From positions 1 to 22,018 of the IMG/VR virus record IMGVR_UViG_3300044701_001244: a stretch of 22,018 bases of DNA. One strand, given 5' to 3'. Of this stretch, positions 13,336 through 16,966 are shown in pieces; position 1 is the stretch's first letter, and the number at the start of each line of letters is the position of its first letter. This DNA is from a virus. Both the position numbers and the translations under genes were made by a program. Below the pieces are notes generated by a model. That model was not told the origin of the DNA. It did not search any database and saw only the letters and a program-made list of their open reading frames with translations.

Positions 13336-13494
13336 TCAGACAGACGGAAAGCAATATGTGATCTTAAAGGCCTCAGGTTGAAGCCGATTAAACCACCTAA
13401 CCGCATCGCTTGCATTGTGTGCAATGATGGGCCAATCGGTTTCTCTATTCTGTCGATCACGGTAGGTGATACGATAGAGTTTCATTGTGGCCAT
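13336..13494 (-). CDS. 52-residue protein, member of the small paralogue family
   Basis: From ATG 13494 (or the second ATG at 13485): MATMKLYRITYRDRQNRETD, WPIIAHNASDAVRWFNRLQP, then FKITYCFPSV. Compare LYRITYRDRQNRETDW here with LYRVSYTDVNGLPGYW in the 64-residue protein, and the helix SDAVRWFNRL with KEHAWQQGIEL. The same strand-turn-strand-helix-strand plan makes these paralogues. A perfect GCCTCTC hairpin precedes the start by a few bases, as for the next family member upstream. Small size and early position suggest a host-directed role, unproven. Confidence 0.7.
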   Translation of the reverse strand: MATMKLYRITYRDRQNRETDWPIIAHNASDAVRWFNRLQPEAFKITYCFPSV

Positions 13495-13500
13495 GATTAA

Positions 13501-13519
13501 GCCTCTCTCAGTGAGAGGC
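13501..13519 (-). other. Leader hairpin, copy 1
   Basis: Minus strand: GCCTCTC-ACTGA-GAGAGGC, perfect 7 bp, ending 6 bases before the ATG at 13494. It is repeated at 13767-13749 with one change that keeps pairing (A to G opposite T), suggesting that the RNA fold on the minus strand is conserved. It overlaps the position of a Shine-Dalgarno (GAGAGGC), so it could gate translation. Confidence 0.55.
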
Positions 13520-13527
13520 AATAGACA

Positions 13528-13548
13528 GGCTAGGGTTTGCACCTAGCC
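13528..13548. other. Intergenic 7-bp hairpin
   Basis: GGCTAGG-GTTTGCA-CCTAGCC. It lies 9 bases upstream of leader hairpin copy 1, just after the stop of the 56-residue gene. The TTGCACCTAG part (13537-13546) is also the inverted complement of CTAGGTGCAA at 13848-13857 on the far side of that gene. Confidence 0.45.
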
Positions 13549-13566
13549 GCCCGCTTTTACGGATTG

Positions 13567-13737
13567 TCAGTAGTCTGCGATGAAATAGACATCCTCAACG
13601 TCAAAGGTTGGATGAATTGCAACACACTTAGCATATGCTTCTGATTTGGTTTCAGTGACATATGAAAGGATGTCGTACCGCTGCTGTTTGGTATCCCATC
13701 CACGGACGCCCCACACAGACAATTTAGTGTCGTTCAT
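13567..13737 (-). CDS. 56-residue protein, member of the small paralogue family
   Basis: From ATG 13737 to TGA at 13567: MNDTKLSVWGVRGWDTKQQR, YDILSYVTETKSEAYAKCVA, then IHPTFDVEDVYFIADY. It has the same short strand, charged turn, strand, helix and final strand as its neighbours (LSVWGVRGWDTKQQRYDILSYVTE aligns with LYRITYRDRQNRETDWPIIAHN). Leader hairpin copy 2 ends about 11 bases before the start. Not previously obvious because of its length. It is bounded by a 10-base inverted repeat (13537-13546 and 13848-13857), which might reflect cassette-like movement. Confidence 0.7.
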   Translation of the reverse strand: MNDTKLSVWGVRGWDTKQQRYDILSYVTETKSEAYAKCVAIHPTFDVEDVYFIADY

Positions 13738-13748
13738 TGTCCTAATTA

Positions 13749-13767
13749 GCCTCCCTCATTGAGAGGC
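13749..13767 (-). other. Leader hairpin, copy 2
   Basis: Minus strand GCCTCTC-AATGA-GGGAGGC: six Watson-Crick pairs and one G-U pair. On the plus strand the same position would be a C-A mismatch, so the minus-strand transcript is the one whose fold is kept. It precedes the 56-residue gene in the same way copy 1 precedes the 52-residue gene. Confidence 0.5.
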
Positions 13768-13771
13768 AAGT

Positions 13772-13971
13772 GGGCAGTCAACGAGTCGACGTTGATCCAC
13801 GGCGGGCCGTGCTGCCCAGTTCATCTGTTCGCCCTGTCTTCAGTTGTCTAGGTGCAAGTGAGACGGGACGGCTGTCCCCCTCACACCAGCAATGATGGCC
13901 CATCCCTTGCACCAATGCAACCGACTGACGGGCTAACCAGTTGGACAGGCGTCTACACCCTAGTGTTTGCA
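13772..13971. ncRNA. Candidate structured RNA: three consecutive three-way junctions
   Basis: This gap of 280 bases (13738-14017) holds no convincing gene but folds densely. Junction 1 (13772-13816): outer GGGCAG/CTGCCC enclosing TCAACG-AGTCGA-CGTTGA and CACGGC-GG-GCCGTG, with 2 unpaired bases. Junction 2 (13851-13913): outer GGTGCAAG/CTTGCACC enclosing TGAG/CTCA with a nested GGGAC-GGCT-GTCCC, and GATG-GCC-CATC. Junction 3 (13916-13971): outer TGCAA/TTGCA enclosing CCGACTG-(10)-CAGTTGG (one G-U on plus) and ACAC-CCTA-GTGT. Strand is undecided: all flanking genes are on minus, but the wobble in junction 3 favours plus. Could equally be a DNA element (origin, cruciform) rather than RNA. No known RNA family recognised. 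Confidence 0.5.
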
Positions 13972-14017
13972 AGGGGTCTGGCCCTAAAAGTCGCTGTAAT
14001 AATGTTGTTACAATCCC

Positions 14018-14212
14018 TCAGTCTGTCCGTGGTGCTCGCATGCTCGGATCAACAATCCACTCTTCCTCTATAGCTTCTGCTGCCTGTTTAATCTTGGCCC
14101 GTTGTTTGTCTGTGATCTTCATGTAAGGGTCATTCATAACACAAACCAATCGATCTAAGCGATCACACATAGAGAGATAAGCCTGTTCAATTGGTGTAGA
14201 GAATTGATGCAT
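14018..14212 (-). CDS. 64-residue hypothetical protein
   Basis: MHQFSTPIEQAYLSMCDRLD is followed by RLVCVMNDPYMKITDKQRAK and a helical acidic part IKQAAEAIEEEWIVDP, ending MRAPRTD. It is predicted helical with two cysteines. It lacks a clear Shine-Dalgarno, but an AT-rich stretch with TATAAA (about 14238) lies 25-35 bases upstream on the minus strand. No family recognised. Probably one of the first early genes after the genome end. Confidence 0.5.
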   Translation of the reverse strand: MHQFSTPIEQAYLSMCDRLDRLVCVMNDPYMKITDKQRAKIKQAAEAIEEEWIVDPSMRAPRTD

Positions 14213-14499: not shown

Positions 14500-14799
14500 T
14501 TACTCCGACCACGGTGCTCTCAAGCGGATCTCATCCAACCCCTCCACCTCAGACGGCTTACTAGAAAAGACAGGACTAGACACACCACTAGGACCAACAT
14601 CAATAGACTCTAGCTGTCTATCCACATCATCCATGGTCATCTTAGTCTTTATGTATACCCAGCCATTTCTACACTGATCAATAGCATTCCTGTACCAAGA
14701 CTGTAGTCTTACAGCAGGGTATTTACTGGAATACCATAGCAGTAGTTCGTATACACAATAGTAGAGGTATTCTCTCATAATCCTAAGCGGATACGTCAT
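14500..14799 (-). CDS. 99-residue hypothetical protein, first early gene candidate
   Basis: MTYPLRIMREYLYYCVYELL leads to an aromatic, membrane-associating N-terminal half (LWYSSKYPAVRLQSWYRN) and an acidic, Ser/Pro-rich C-terminal half ending APWSE. The second Met (14778) has AGGA 3 bases before it and is an alternative start. The N-terminal 30 residues could be an amphipathic membrane helix. It is isolated between two non-coding stretches and lies just after the terminase region, where T7-like phages place their first host-takeover genes. No family recognised; its isolation makes the call moderate. Confidence 0.5.
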   Translation of the reverse strand: MTYPLRIMREYLYYCVYELLLWYSSKYPAVRLQSWYRNAIDQCRNGWVYIKTKMTMDDVDRQLESIDVGPSGVSSPVFSSKPSEVEGLDEIRLRAPWSE

Positions 14800-15208: not shown

Positions 15209-16966
15209 CTAGGCGTTTGGGATAGCTTCTAGGGGGTTAGACCAGTCATAGATCCTTGTGACGGAACGCTTCTGGAGCTCCATGAAGGGGAGGCCAAGGG
15301 CGAGGCCATCAACAGCCCGTTTAGGATCGTCTTGAATCATCTGTTGCATAGCAGCCCATTCTTCGTTACGACGTTGGGCCTGTTGTTTAGCAGCAGAGAG
15401 GGCCAGGGCATCGGTAAACCATTGAACACCCTGACTAATGGAGTCGACCCTATCGTCATGCTTAACAGCACCCTTCTCTTTGCACATGCGAGAGAGCTGG
15501 TACATGAGCATGTACTCCAGTCTCTTCTCAGGAGCCTCGTTGGGATTGGAGCGGTAGTCCCACTCAATGATCTTGGGATCAATGATCAGTTTATGTTGGT
15601 TTAGGACAGGCTCCAGGGTAGCGATGATGCGCTCCTCTTTACGGACAGAAGCCCGCACCTCTTCGACATGGGCATTGCATTGCTGTTGGACGAGGTGTCG
15701 TTTAAGGAGCTCACAGACCATGCCATCACCGAAGTTGGATTCCACGAGGAAGGTGCCAGCCTCATAGCGTTTACCGAGCTGGACGATCTGTCTGAGGGTT
15801 TCATCGCTATAGCCATCCCTAAAGGCCAGCATGTCTCTGATAAAGAGATAGCCATTAGCTTGGCTCATGACCACGGCCACGGTTTCGTCTAGGCCACGAC
15901 CAGAGGGATCTAGGGAGACGATGGTTTCACTGAAGGGGCAGCAGGCCGCATCAATGAACATGGGGGAGTACCAACGGTCACCGGGAAGGCCGACCGCTGG
16001 GAGTTCTTTAAGGATGTATCGAGGATCACTGGACCAGGCGTACTTTTCAGCACACTCAGACCCAATAGGAGTAACAATAAAATCAGAGAACCTAAGAGGG
16101 AACTTATCGGCATCGCTGAGGGTTGTATTGAGTTGGAACTGAAGCTCAAAGTTCGAGCGGCCCATGGAGGCCTCACGTTCCATCAACTCAATATCCGAGA
16201 AGCGGGTATCGGTTGGATCTCCGGGGGAGGCGCCATTCTCTAGGTCTTCCAGCAGCTGAGGCGCCAGGAGGCCTTCATAGAGGCTGGTGTCCTTGGGATA
16301 CCTAGAGGGCCAGACAAAGGGCTTGTAGGCCCTCTCAGCAAGCTTTCGGTAGCAGGTAAAGGTTGTCTGGGGAGTCCCTAGAAAGATGATGCGAGAGGAC
16401 GGTTTCGGCATCAAGATAGCCTCAGCTTCTGAGATTAGTTGGAGAAGCTTTTCTCTCTGCATGTCTGTTGCAGAGTTATTAGGAACCTCGACGTCATCAA
16501 AGAGCATGATGTCAGCACGGGAGCCGGTCATGTTGCCGGTAATACCGACTGACTTCACAGAAGGGGCTTGGGTTGGTACGCAACCACCAATATCAAAGGA
16601 GATCCGAGACCATCTAGACTCATCTGAGGATGGTCGCATGTGTTTCAACCAGGGGATGGTCAGGATCAGCTTCTGAAGAAAGATCGAGTTGTTGTCTGCC
16701 CGCTCTTTTGAGGCAGAGATACACATGATCTTTTTATTGGGGTCTTTATAGAGCTCCCACAGGACATAGGCCGCAGTAACGTAGCTCTTACCGATTCCTC
16801 GAAAGGCTTGTACCTGAAGACGCTTAGGGCCGTACTGAAGGTAGTCAGCAATAGCGTATTGGGCCCGCGTTGGAGAGGGTAGTCCTAGCTCGTGCCATAC
16901 GGCAGAGAGAAAGGTTTTAAAAGACCCCTTCAGATGGCCCTCTAAGGCCTGTGTAGAAGGGCTCAC
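15209..16966 (-). CDS. Terminase large subunit (T7 gp19-like packaging ATPase/nuclease)
   Basis: 585 residues, the T7 gp19 size (586). Starts at GTG (GTGAGCCCTTCTACACAGG), not ATG. ATPase domain: Walker A FRGIGKS (55-61), ISASKERADNNS, Walker B IMLFDDVEVP (153-162) and the coupling motif LGTPQT. Nuclease domain: VSLDPSGRGLDETVAVV with the first catalytic Asp, LVESNFGDG, and HDDRVDSISQG with the last acidic pair. It translocates concatemeric DNA into proheads and cuts at the genome ends. A terminator hairpin lies between it and the tail-lysozyme gene, so it may have its own late promoter; TATATT about 10 bases upstream is noted but unproven. Confidence 0.97.
   Translation of the reverse strand: MSPSTQALEGHLKGSFKTFLSAVWHELGLPSPTRAQYAIADYLQYGPKRLQVQAFRGIGKSYVTAAYVLWELYKDPNKKIMCISASKERADNNSIFLQKLILTIPWLKHMRPSSDESRWSRISFDIGGCVPTQAPSVKSVGITGNMTGSRADIMLFDDVEVPNNSATDMQREKLLQLISEAEAILMPKPSSRIIFLGTPQTTFTCYRKLAERAYKPFVWPSRYPKDTSLYEGLLAPQLLEDLENGASPGDPTDTRFSDIELMEREASMGRSNFELQFQLNTTLSDADKFPLRFSDFIVTPIGSECAEKYAWSSDPRYILKELPAVGLPGDRWYSPMFIDAACCPFSETIVSLDPSGRGLDETVAVVMSQANGYLFIRDMLAFRDGYSDETLRQIVQLGKRYEAGTFLVESNFGDGMVCELLKRHLVQQQCNAHVEEVRASVRKEERIIATLEPVLNQHKLIIDPKIIEWDYRSNPNEAPEKRLEYMLMYQLSRMCKEKGAVKHDDRVDSISQGVQWFTDALALSAAKQQAQRRNEEWAAMQQMIQDDPKRAVDGLALGLPFMELQKRSVTRIYDWSNPLEAIPNA

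Follow-up and report, generated by a model that had tools for sequence, protein, structure and literature searches.

Small folded RNAs between cyanophage genes as candidate tRNA-like punctuation marks

Repeated structured sites between genes are familiar from phage T7, whose RNase III sites, long double-stranded hairpins, lie between early genes and before start codons, and tRNA-like t-elements were reportedly the subject of work by Hanic-Joyce in 1990 and by Forner in 2007. The t-elements of plant mitochondria are described as derived from recognisable tRNA genes with their tRNA-like secondary structure kept, and as defining mRNA ends through recognition by RNase P, RNase Z and the CCA-adding enzyme (PMC11658184). 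Like human mascRNA, they are tRNA-like folds at transcript ends that serve as substrates of RNase P and RNase Z and remain uncharged (PMC11658184, PMC11693755). mascRNA and menRNA, from MALAT1 and MEN-beta, are non-aminoacylated mimics at the 3' end of long transcripts, with reduced D and anticodon arms and a coaxial acceptor/T-arm (PMC11693755). Host RNase P also cuts phage RNAs, namely the C4 antisense RNA of P1 and P7, M3 RNA and T4 gene 32 mRNA, which are single, structurally unrelated cases and form no repeated intercistronic family (PMC11143913).

For the cyanophage elements described here, the fold, its covariation, its position, the family, its exchange with tRNA genes and a common 3' trailer can be read directly from the sequences compared. 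They share with t-elements the tRNA-like structure at the end of a coding unit, which in t-elements is not used in translation; they differ in having no anticodon arm, an invariant side hairpin (P2), an embedded stop codon and a following structure (P4), and cleavage is here only proposed. The features listed for mascRNA and menRNA are likewise resembled, although those are animal long non-coding RNAs whose elbow uses two D-loop guanines that were not seen here (PMC11693755). In contrast to the T7 sites, the elements have a 12-bp stack with a T-loop, and their occurrence extends to further phage groups and, as a related form, to hosts; an RNase III site of the T7 type (stem of ~20 bp) was rejected because the longest continuous stack, of ~12 bp, is too short.

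The window and its first junction

The window, i.e., the whole stretch of 22,018 nt that was analysed, is assigned to a cyanopodovirus as a fragment close to Synechococcus phage S-CBP2. Its minus strand carries genes for DNA polymerase, an endonuclease, a Gp2.5-like SSB, a T7-type RNA polymerase, an integrase and a terminase (15209-16966), the last being 84% identical to its counterpart in the isolate record taken as S-CBP2. The gap under study lies between the terminase gene and the early genes, which is the left genome end. Two contigs from one sample that are identical to the window (L004 and L022) end or start near 14651 and 14777 and have 127 bases in common; these ends perhaps mark a terminal repeat or the genome end. 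Upstream of the gap lies a small conserved ORF of 64 aa (14018-14212, minus strand); four IMG/VR loci contain homologues of it that are 46-100% identical. Near its end, inside a conserved block, a hairpin-like sequence, TTGTAACAACATTATTACA, was observed at 14000-14030 (minus strand), with longer versions in S-CBP2, L008 and L010.

An earlier note on this DNA had described three three-way junctions in a row between 13772 and 13971, overlapped by no good gene. The stretch is indeed free of good genes, and the first junction, at 13772-13817 with a 6-bp outer helix, is present exactly as described. On the minus strand it consists of P1 (GGGCAG/CUGCCC, 6 bp) closing on the hairpins P2 (CACGG-CCCG-CCGUG, 5 bp) and P3 (UCAACG-UCGACU-CGUUGA, 6 bp), with two unpaired bases at the junction; the 3' strand of P3 continues directly into that of P1, giving a P1+P3 sum of 6+6 = 12 bp. 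Designated type B, it is the only three-way junction found by a strict scan (outer helix of at least 6 bp, hairpins of at least 5 bp, at most 6 unpaired bases) in the whole 22-kb window; when the 200-nt region was shuffled with its dinucleotide composition kept, 1 of 300 shuffled versions contained such a junction. The 200 nt as a whole fold only moderately better than shuffled sequences (plus strand, z of -2.5; minus strand, z of -2.3).

Junction 1 is kept in five sequences (the window, S-CBP2, L006, L008 and L010), in which compensatory, two-sided changes occur in P2, in P3 and in the hairpin that follows. This hairpin, P4 (13749-13767, minus strand; GCCUCUC-AAUGA-GGGAGGC, 7 bp), of which three pairs change on both sides, comes after the linker ACUU and is followed, 11 nt behind it, by the AUG at 13737 of a 56-aa ORF (13567-13737, minus strand) that has no match in PHROGs. 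The span originally drawn (13772-13971) is thus too short at this side, as the functional unit extends into the P4 hairpin and the AUG at 13737; the strand that matters is the minus strand. The covariation, G-U pairing on that strand and the lack of any match to the Rfam 15 covariance models, even at E<=5, agree with the suggestion of a structured phage RNA outside the described families. Two of the suggested roles fared less well: a decoy RNA is not supported, and the G-U pairs on one strand and the position in mRNA speak against a DNA cruciform, or a DNA structure for replication or packaging. The element belongs to intercistronic mRNA, and it returns between genes of many cyanophages and, in a related form, in host chromosomes.

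The conserved non-coding stretch at 13839-13971 (minus strand) contains the other two of the supposedly perfect three-way junctions. They can be drawn, from GGTGCAAG/CTTGCACC and TGCAA/TTGCA, yet a loose scan of the 200-nt region yields one non-overlapping junction, which is junction 1. Homologues, in which junction 1 covaries, lend them no such support: their pairs are kept in 76% of cases vs 73% with shuffled partners, two-sided changes affect 5 of 35 pairs, several helices break and the predicted folds of the region vary among homologues. Comparison thus leaves both unsupported as drawn; as the sequence is conserved, a different structure is possible there.

The second element and the type A family

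The stop codon of the 56-aa ORF, UGA, forms the first three bases of a second element (13501-13569, minus strand), which follows the plan of junction 1 (junction, short linker, P4, AUG) with a different junction sequence. Its three-way junction (type A, 13520-13569, minus strand) comprises P1, a conserved P2 hairpin, CCGUAAAAGCGG, and P3 with the T-loop UGCAAAC; its P4 (13501-13519, minus strand; GCCUCUC-ACUGA-GAGAGGC) ends 6 nt before the AUG of a 52-aa ORF (13336-13494, minus strand) that matches PHROG 38550, of unknown function (E 1.2e-10). Model R1, trained on type A only, matches this element with 69.2 bits (E 7e-23 in the window), its core being one of the 28 R1 seeds, and model R2 (type B) matches 13749-13817 (minus strand) with 93.8 bits, the window copy being a seed sequence. 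Because R2 also matches weaker relatives, among them several type A copies, type B is treated as a divergent form of the same plan, with common ancestry as a candidate reading.

With R1, 151 copies were found in 90 selected viral loci, clustered and numbering one to five per record. In the R1-fitted alignment, two-sided changes affect 13 of 16 pairs, 97.9% of cells are paired vs 74% after shuffling, and the covariation score is 0.64 vs 0.17, a signal that is lost when the partners are slid. The helices are variable around a nearly invariant P2 hairpin (AUCCGUNAARNCGGG) and T-loop, and P-SSP2 alters even the otherwise invariant P2 helix with pairing retained. The R1 seed was itself chosen with a pairing filter; a scan with the P2 pattern, a control independent of seed choice, gave at least 124 matches in viral contigs and at least 118 in bacterial genome contigs. 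Among the matches listed, the T-loop was present in 86 of the 124 viral ones, 84 of these with a perfect 7-bp P3, and in none of the 118 from bacterial genome contigs. Rfam 15 (riboswitches, manA, wcaG, glutamine-II and others) gave no match over the elements, nor any family there at lax thresholds, and no account of an element of this kind, either in cyanophages or in Prochlorococcus, appeared in the open-access literature searched. By all these comparisons of sequence, type A elements are a large RNA family that had not been catalogued before and is absent from Rfam, its small folded members lying between cyanophage genes. The family ranges from S-EIV1-like phages through to the marine T7-like cyanopodoviruses and includes, as a related form, copies in picocyanobacterial chromosomes.

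Nearly invariant P2 and T-loop sequences amid variable helices are the usual look of an aptamer, as would be expected of a regulatory RNA that binds a ligand or protein in a P2/T-loop pocket and uses P4 as its expression platform. Such a function is very unlikely, given that each genome carries one to five copies before unrelated small genes, that the related form lies in host 3' UTRs and that no common pathway emerges. A gene-specific riboswitch was rejected, the downstream genes being too diverse.

tRNA likeness and exchange with tRNA genes

Of 106 phage copies, 69 have a P1 and P3 that together make 12 bp, and in 103 the sum lies between 11 and 13 bp. The T-loop has the consensus UGCRAWC, in which the U and the A at the fifth position hardly vary, so that a 7-nt loop with U54, C56, R57 and A58 sits on a coaxial stack of ~12 bp; position 55 is G where tRNA has U, and the element of S-TIP37 has the canonical tRNA T-loop UUCGAUU. 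A single unpaired, invariant G follows P2, and the type A core is followed by one unpaired base, the presumed discriminator, a near-invariant UU and then P4. Compared with tRNA (RF00005), acceptor/T-arm length, T-loop, CCA-less 3' side and U-rich trailer are alike, but the elements, of ~50 nt, have neither anticodon nor D arm and are missed by tRNA models. In three picocyanobacterial genomes, CCA is absent from 36 of 38 tRNA genes, and U is the first trailer base in 29 of 36 and U or C the second in 28 of 36, compared with 27% U farther downstream; the UU that follows the element therefore looks like the 3' trailer of the host's own tRNAs.

Genuine tRNA genes stand in for the element at two sites, where spacing and flanking sequence are unchanged. 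In several marine T7-like cyanopodoviruses, a single copy lies ~110 nt before the capsid gene and behind a small gene that is itself downstream of psbA. At this major-capsid site, NATL1A-7 has a tRNA-Gly(UCC) in place of the element, with the same U-UUGGC trailer. In the podovirus contigs L030 and L035, whose RNA polymerase, primase and DNA polymerase genes we take to be such from reading their translations, a tRNA-Asp is followed by G and UU and then by a P4 hairpin of the window type and a start codon. The exchange is thus seen in three records, L030 and L035 being closely related to each other and both picked up with the P4 hairpin pattern, and the tRNAs may simply be insertions. A different 9-bp hairpin with a variable stem and a conserved 15-nt loop, CACCTCAGAGTCGGA, occupies the capsid site in S-RIP2, P-SSP10 and 9515-10a (L314-L316) and is possibly another functional substitute.

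Two further observations were made alongside. Between psbA and the small ORF before the capsid gene, glutamine-II riboswitches (RF01704) were found in S-RIP2 (L314:330-384), S-TIP37 (L317:475-528) and P-SSP2 (L318:521-574). tRNA-Leu genes with an encoded CCA occur in the element-bearing contigs L045, L051, L053, L093 and L113, in the first four ~20 nt before an ATG, as elements are.

The reading preferred here, to which we give close to an even chance, is that the elements punctuate phage mRNA as tRNA mimics, which tRNA-processing enzymes of the host would cut or hold, and so mark where long viral messages are cut or protected. Directly behind one stop codon, and usually overlapping it, ahead of the next gene, the P1+P3 stack of ~12 bp under its T-loop would imitate the acceptor/T-arm of tRNA, with the short side hairpin P2 as a stand-in for the D and anticodon arms. 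Enzyme recognition, cleavage and effect on the mRNA are what we infer from this likeness: host enzymes that measure tRNA shape, most likely RNase Z, would recognise the element, and RNase Z would cut behind the unpaired base after P1, before the conserved UU, while RNase P might act on the 5' side. The upstream message would gain a folded 3' end with its stop codon kept, and the downstream message would begin with a protective P4 hairpin or pseudoknot before its start codon. Since the embedded stop codon would be lost if RNase P cut on the 5' side of P1, only a 3' cut would fit most phage copies, and the embedded stop thus appears to favour RNase Z in phages. RNase P, RNase Z and RNase J are present in cyanobacteria, the last in every one sequenced (PMC10989914).

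In favour of this reading are the covarying fold, the P1+P3 sum with its T-loop (6+6 bp also in type B), the exchange with tRNA genes, the tRNA-type UU, the stop codon inside P1 and the position of the host copies. Against these tRNA-like punctuation marks stand the missing anticodon arm, with no tRNA called at the elements by ARAGORN or the Rfam tRNA models, and the P2 loop (NAAA, no GG), which lacks the two elbow guanines of tRNA and mascRNA (PMC11693755). G at position 55, the frequent 13-bp sum in host copies and the different capsid-site hairpin of S-RIP2, P-SSP10 and 9515-10a also argue against them. In a fuller and more tentative form, with somewhat below an even chance, cyanophages and some picocyanobacteria would use a dedicated family of miniature tRNA mimics with a built-in stop codon, between or behind mRNAs, that exploit host tRNA 3'-end processing and the chemistry of CCA-less tRNAs. 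These mimics would be a bacterial counterpart of mitochondrial tRNA punctuation, replaceable by or derived from real tRNA genes. The elements suggest a concrete, testable way for phages to divide polycistronic messages and a reason for isolated tRNA genes between phage protein genes.

Neighbouring genes, P4 classes and host copies

The stop codon of the upstream gene lies inside P1 in ~84% of copies and moves with P1 on a one-base register shift, and the next start codon follows ~30-45 nt behind the element. Stop-codon readthrough into the next gene, which calls for a continuous frame, was rejected, as the frame of that gene relative to the upstream stop is uniformly distributed (36/35/32). 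Among distinct tails, P4 is a 7-bp hairpin in 33, a 5-bp hairpin in 28 and an H-type pseudoknot in 55, 15 fitting none of these classes; the second stem of the pseudoknot is fully formed in 53 of 55, with double-sided changes. A Shine-Dalgarno GGAG stands behind 41 of the 55 pseudoknots vs 1 of the 61 hairpins, and P4 thus tracks the initiation mode. This, together with the embedded stop and the nearby start, would suit translational control, in which junction and P4 couple termination upstream to the next initiation as a repressor, enhancer or reinitiation signal. The reading is nevertheless unlikely, since the related host elements often have no close same-strand gene behind them, the marine phage copies lie ~110 nt from the capsid start and the genes downstream fall into numerous families with no relation to one another. 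Searching with P4 alone, as a 19-nt motif, was abandoned: a scan of viral contigs gave many unrelated terminator-like hairpins, so the hairpin alone is not diagnostic.

Gene families on both sides are diverse small unknown proteins, and the small genes that precede one copy also follow another (542 homologous pairs). Individual P3 variants accompany a wide variety of genes; GACCAGG, for instance, is found with 17 downstream families. Both patterns would be expected if the element were a recombination module, i.e., conserved DNA between small genes through which phages shuffle early-gene cassettes. This is the least probable of the explanations weighed, with only a slight chance, because selection acts on pairing, with G-U intermediates, and not on sequence identity, and because P4 and the 3'-UTR copies of hosts would be left unexplained; the shuffling may be a by-product.

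The position of the host copies counts in favour of the tRNA-like reading. Within one picocyanobacterial family, 41 of 251 sampled genomes have a hit; the weakest matches in a phylum-wide set of 292 genomes may be due to chance. In 24 of 32 host loci examined, the related element is preceded at 6-22 nt by the stop codon of one gene, whose product is a conserved, basic, lysine-rich protein of the same type (MSQLTIKLSAKADALIAQLQKEIFNRRRKK...) with no Pfam match, and the next gene often faces the other way. The core is accordingly tied to the 3' end of the upstream message, and not to the next start alone. Four other host loci, in larger genomes, have the stop at the phage position, followed by what appears by eye to be a terminator-like hairpin with a U-run. 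P1+P3 is often 13 bp in host copies.

Such hairpins directly behind some host copies, the 3'-UTR position and the compact junction with its pseudoknot, in the manner of viral exonuclease-resistant RNAs, would also fit a nuclease roadblock, at which 5'-3' decay by RNase J, the enzyme found throughout sequenced cyanobacteria (PMC10989914), or 3'-5' decay by PNPase is stopped, the RNA being uncut by tRNA enzymes. A roadblock is distinctly unlikely, as it predicts neither the 12-bp ruler with its T-loop, nor the exchange with tRNA genes, nor the tRNA-type UU trailer. Among the host loci, the element was observed in the 3' UTR of the lysine-rich protein gene at L277, L280, L287, L292-L301 and others.
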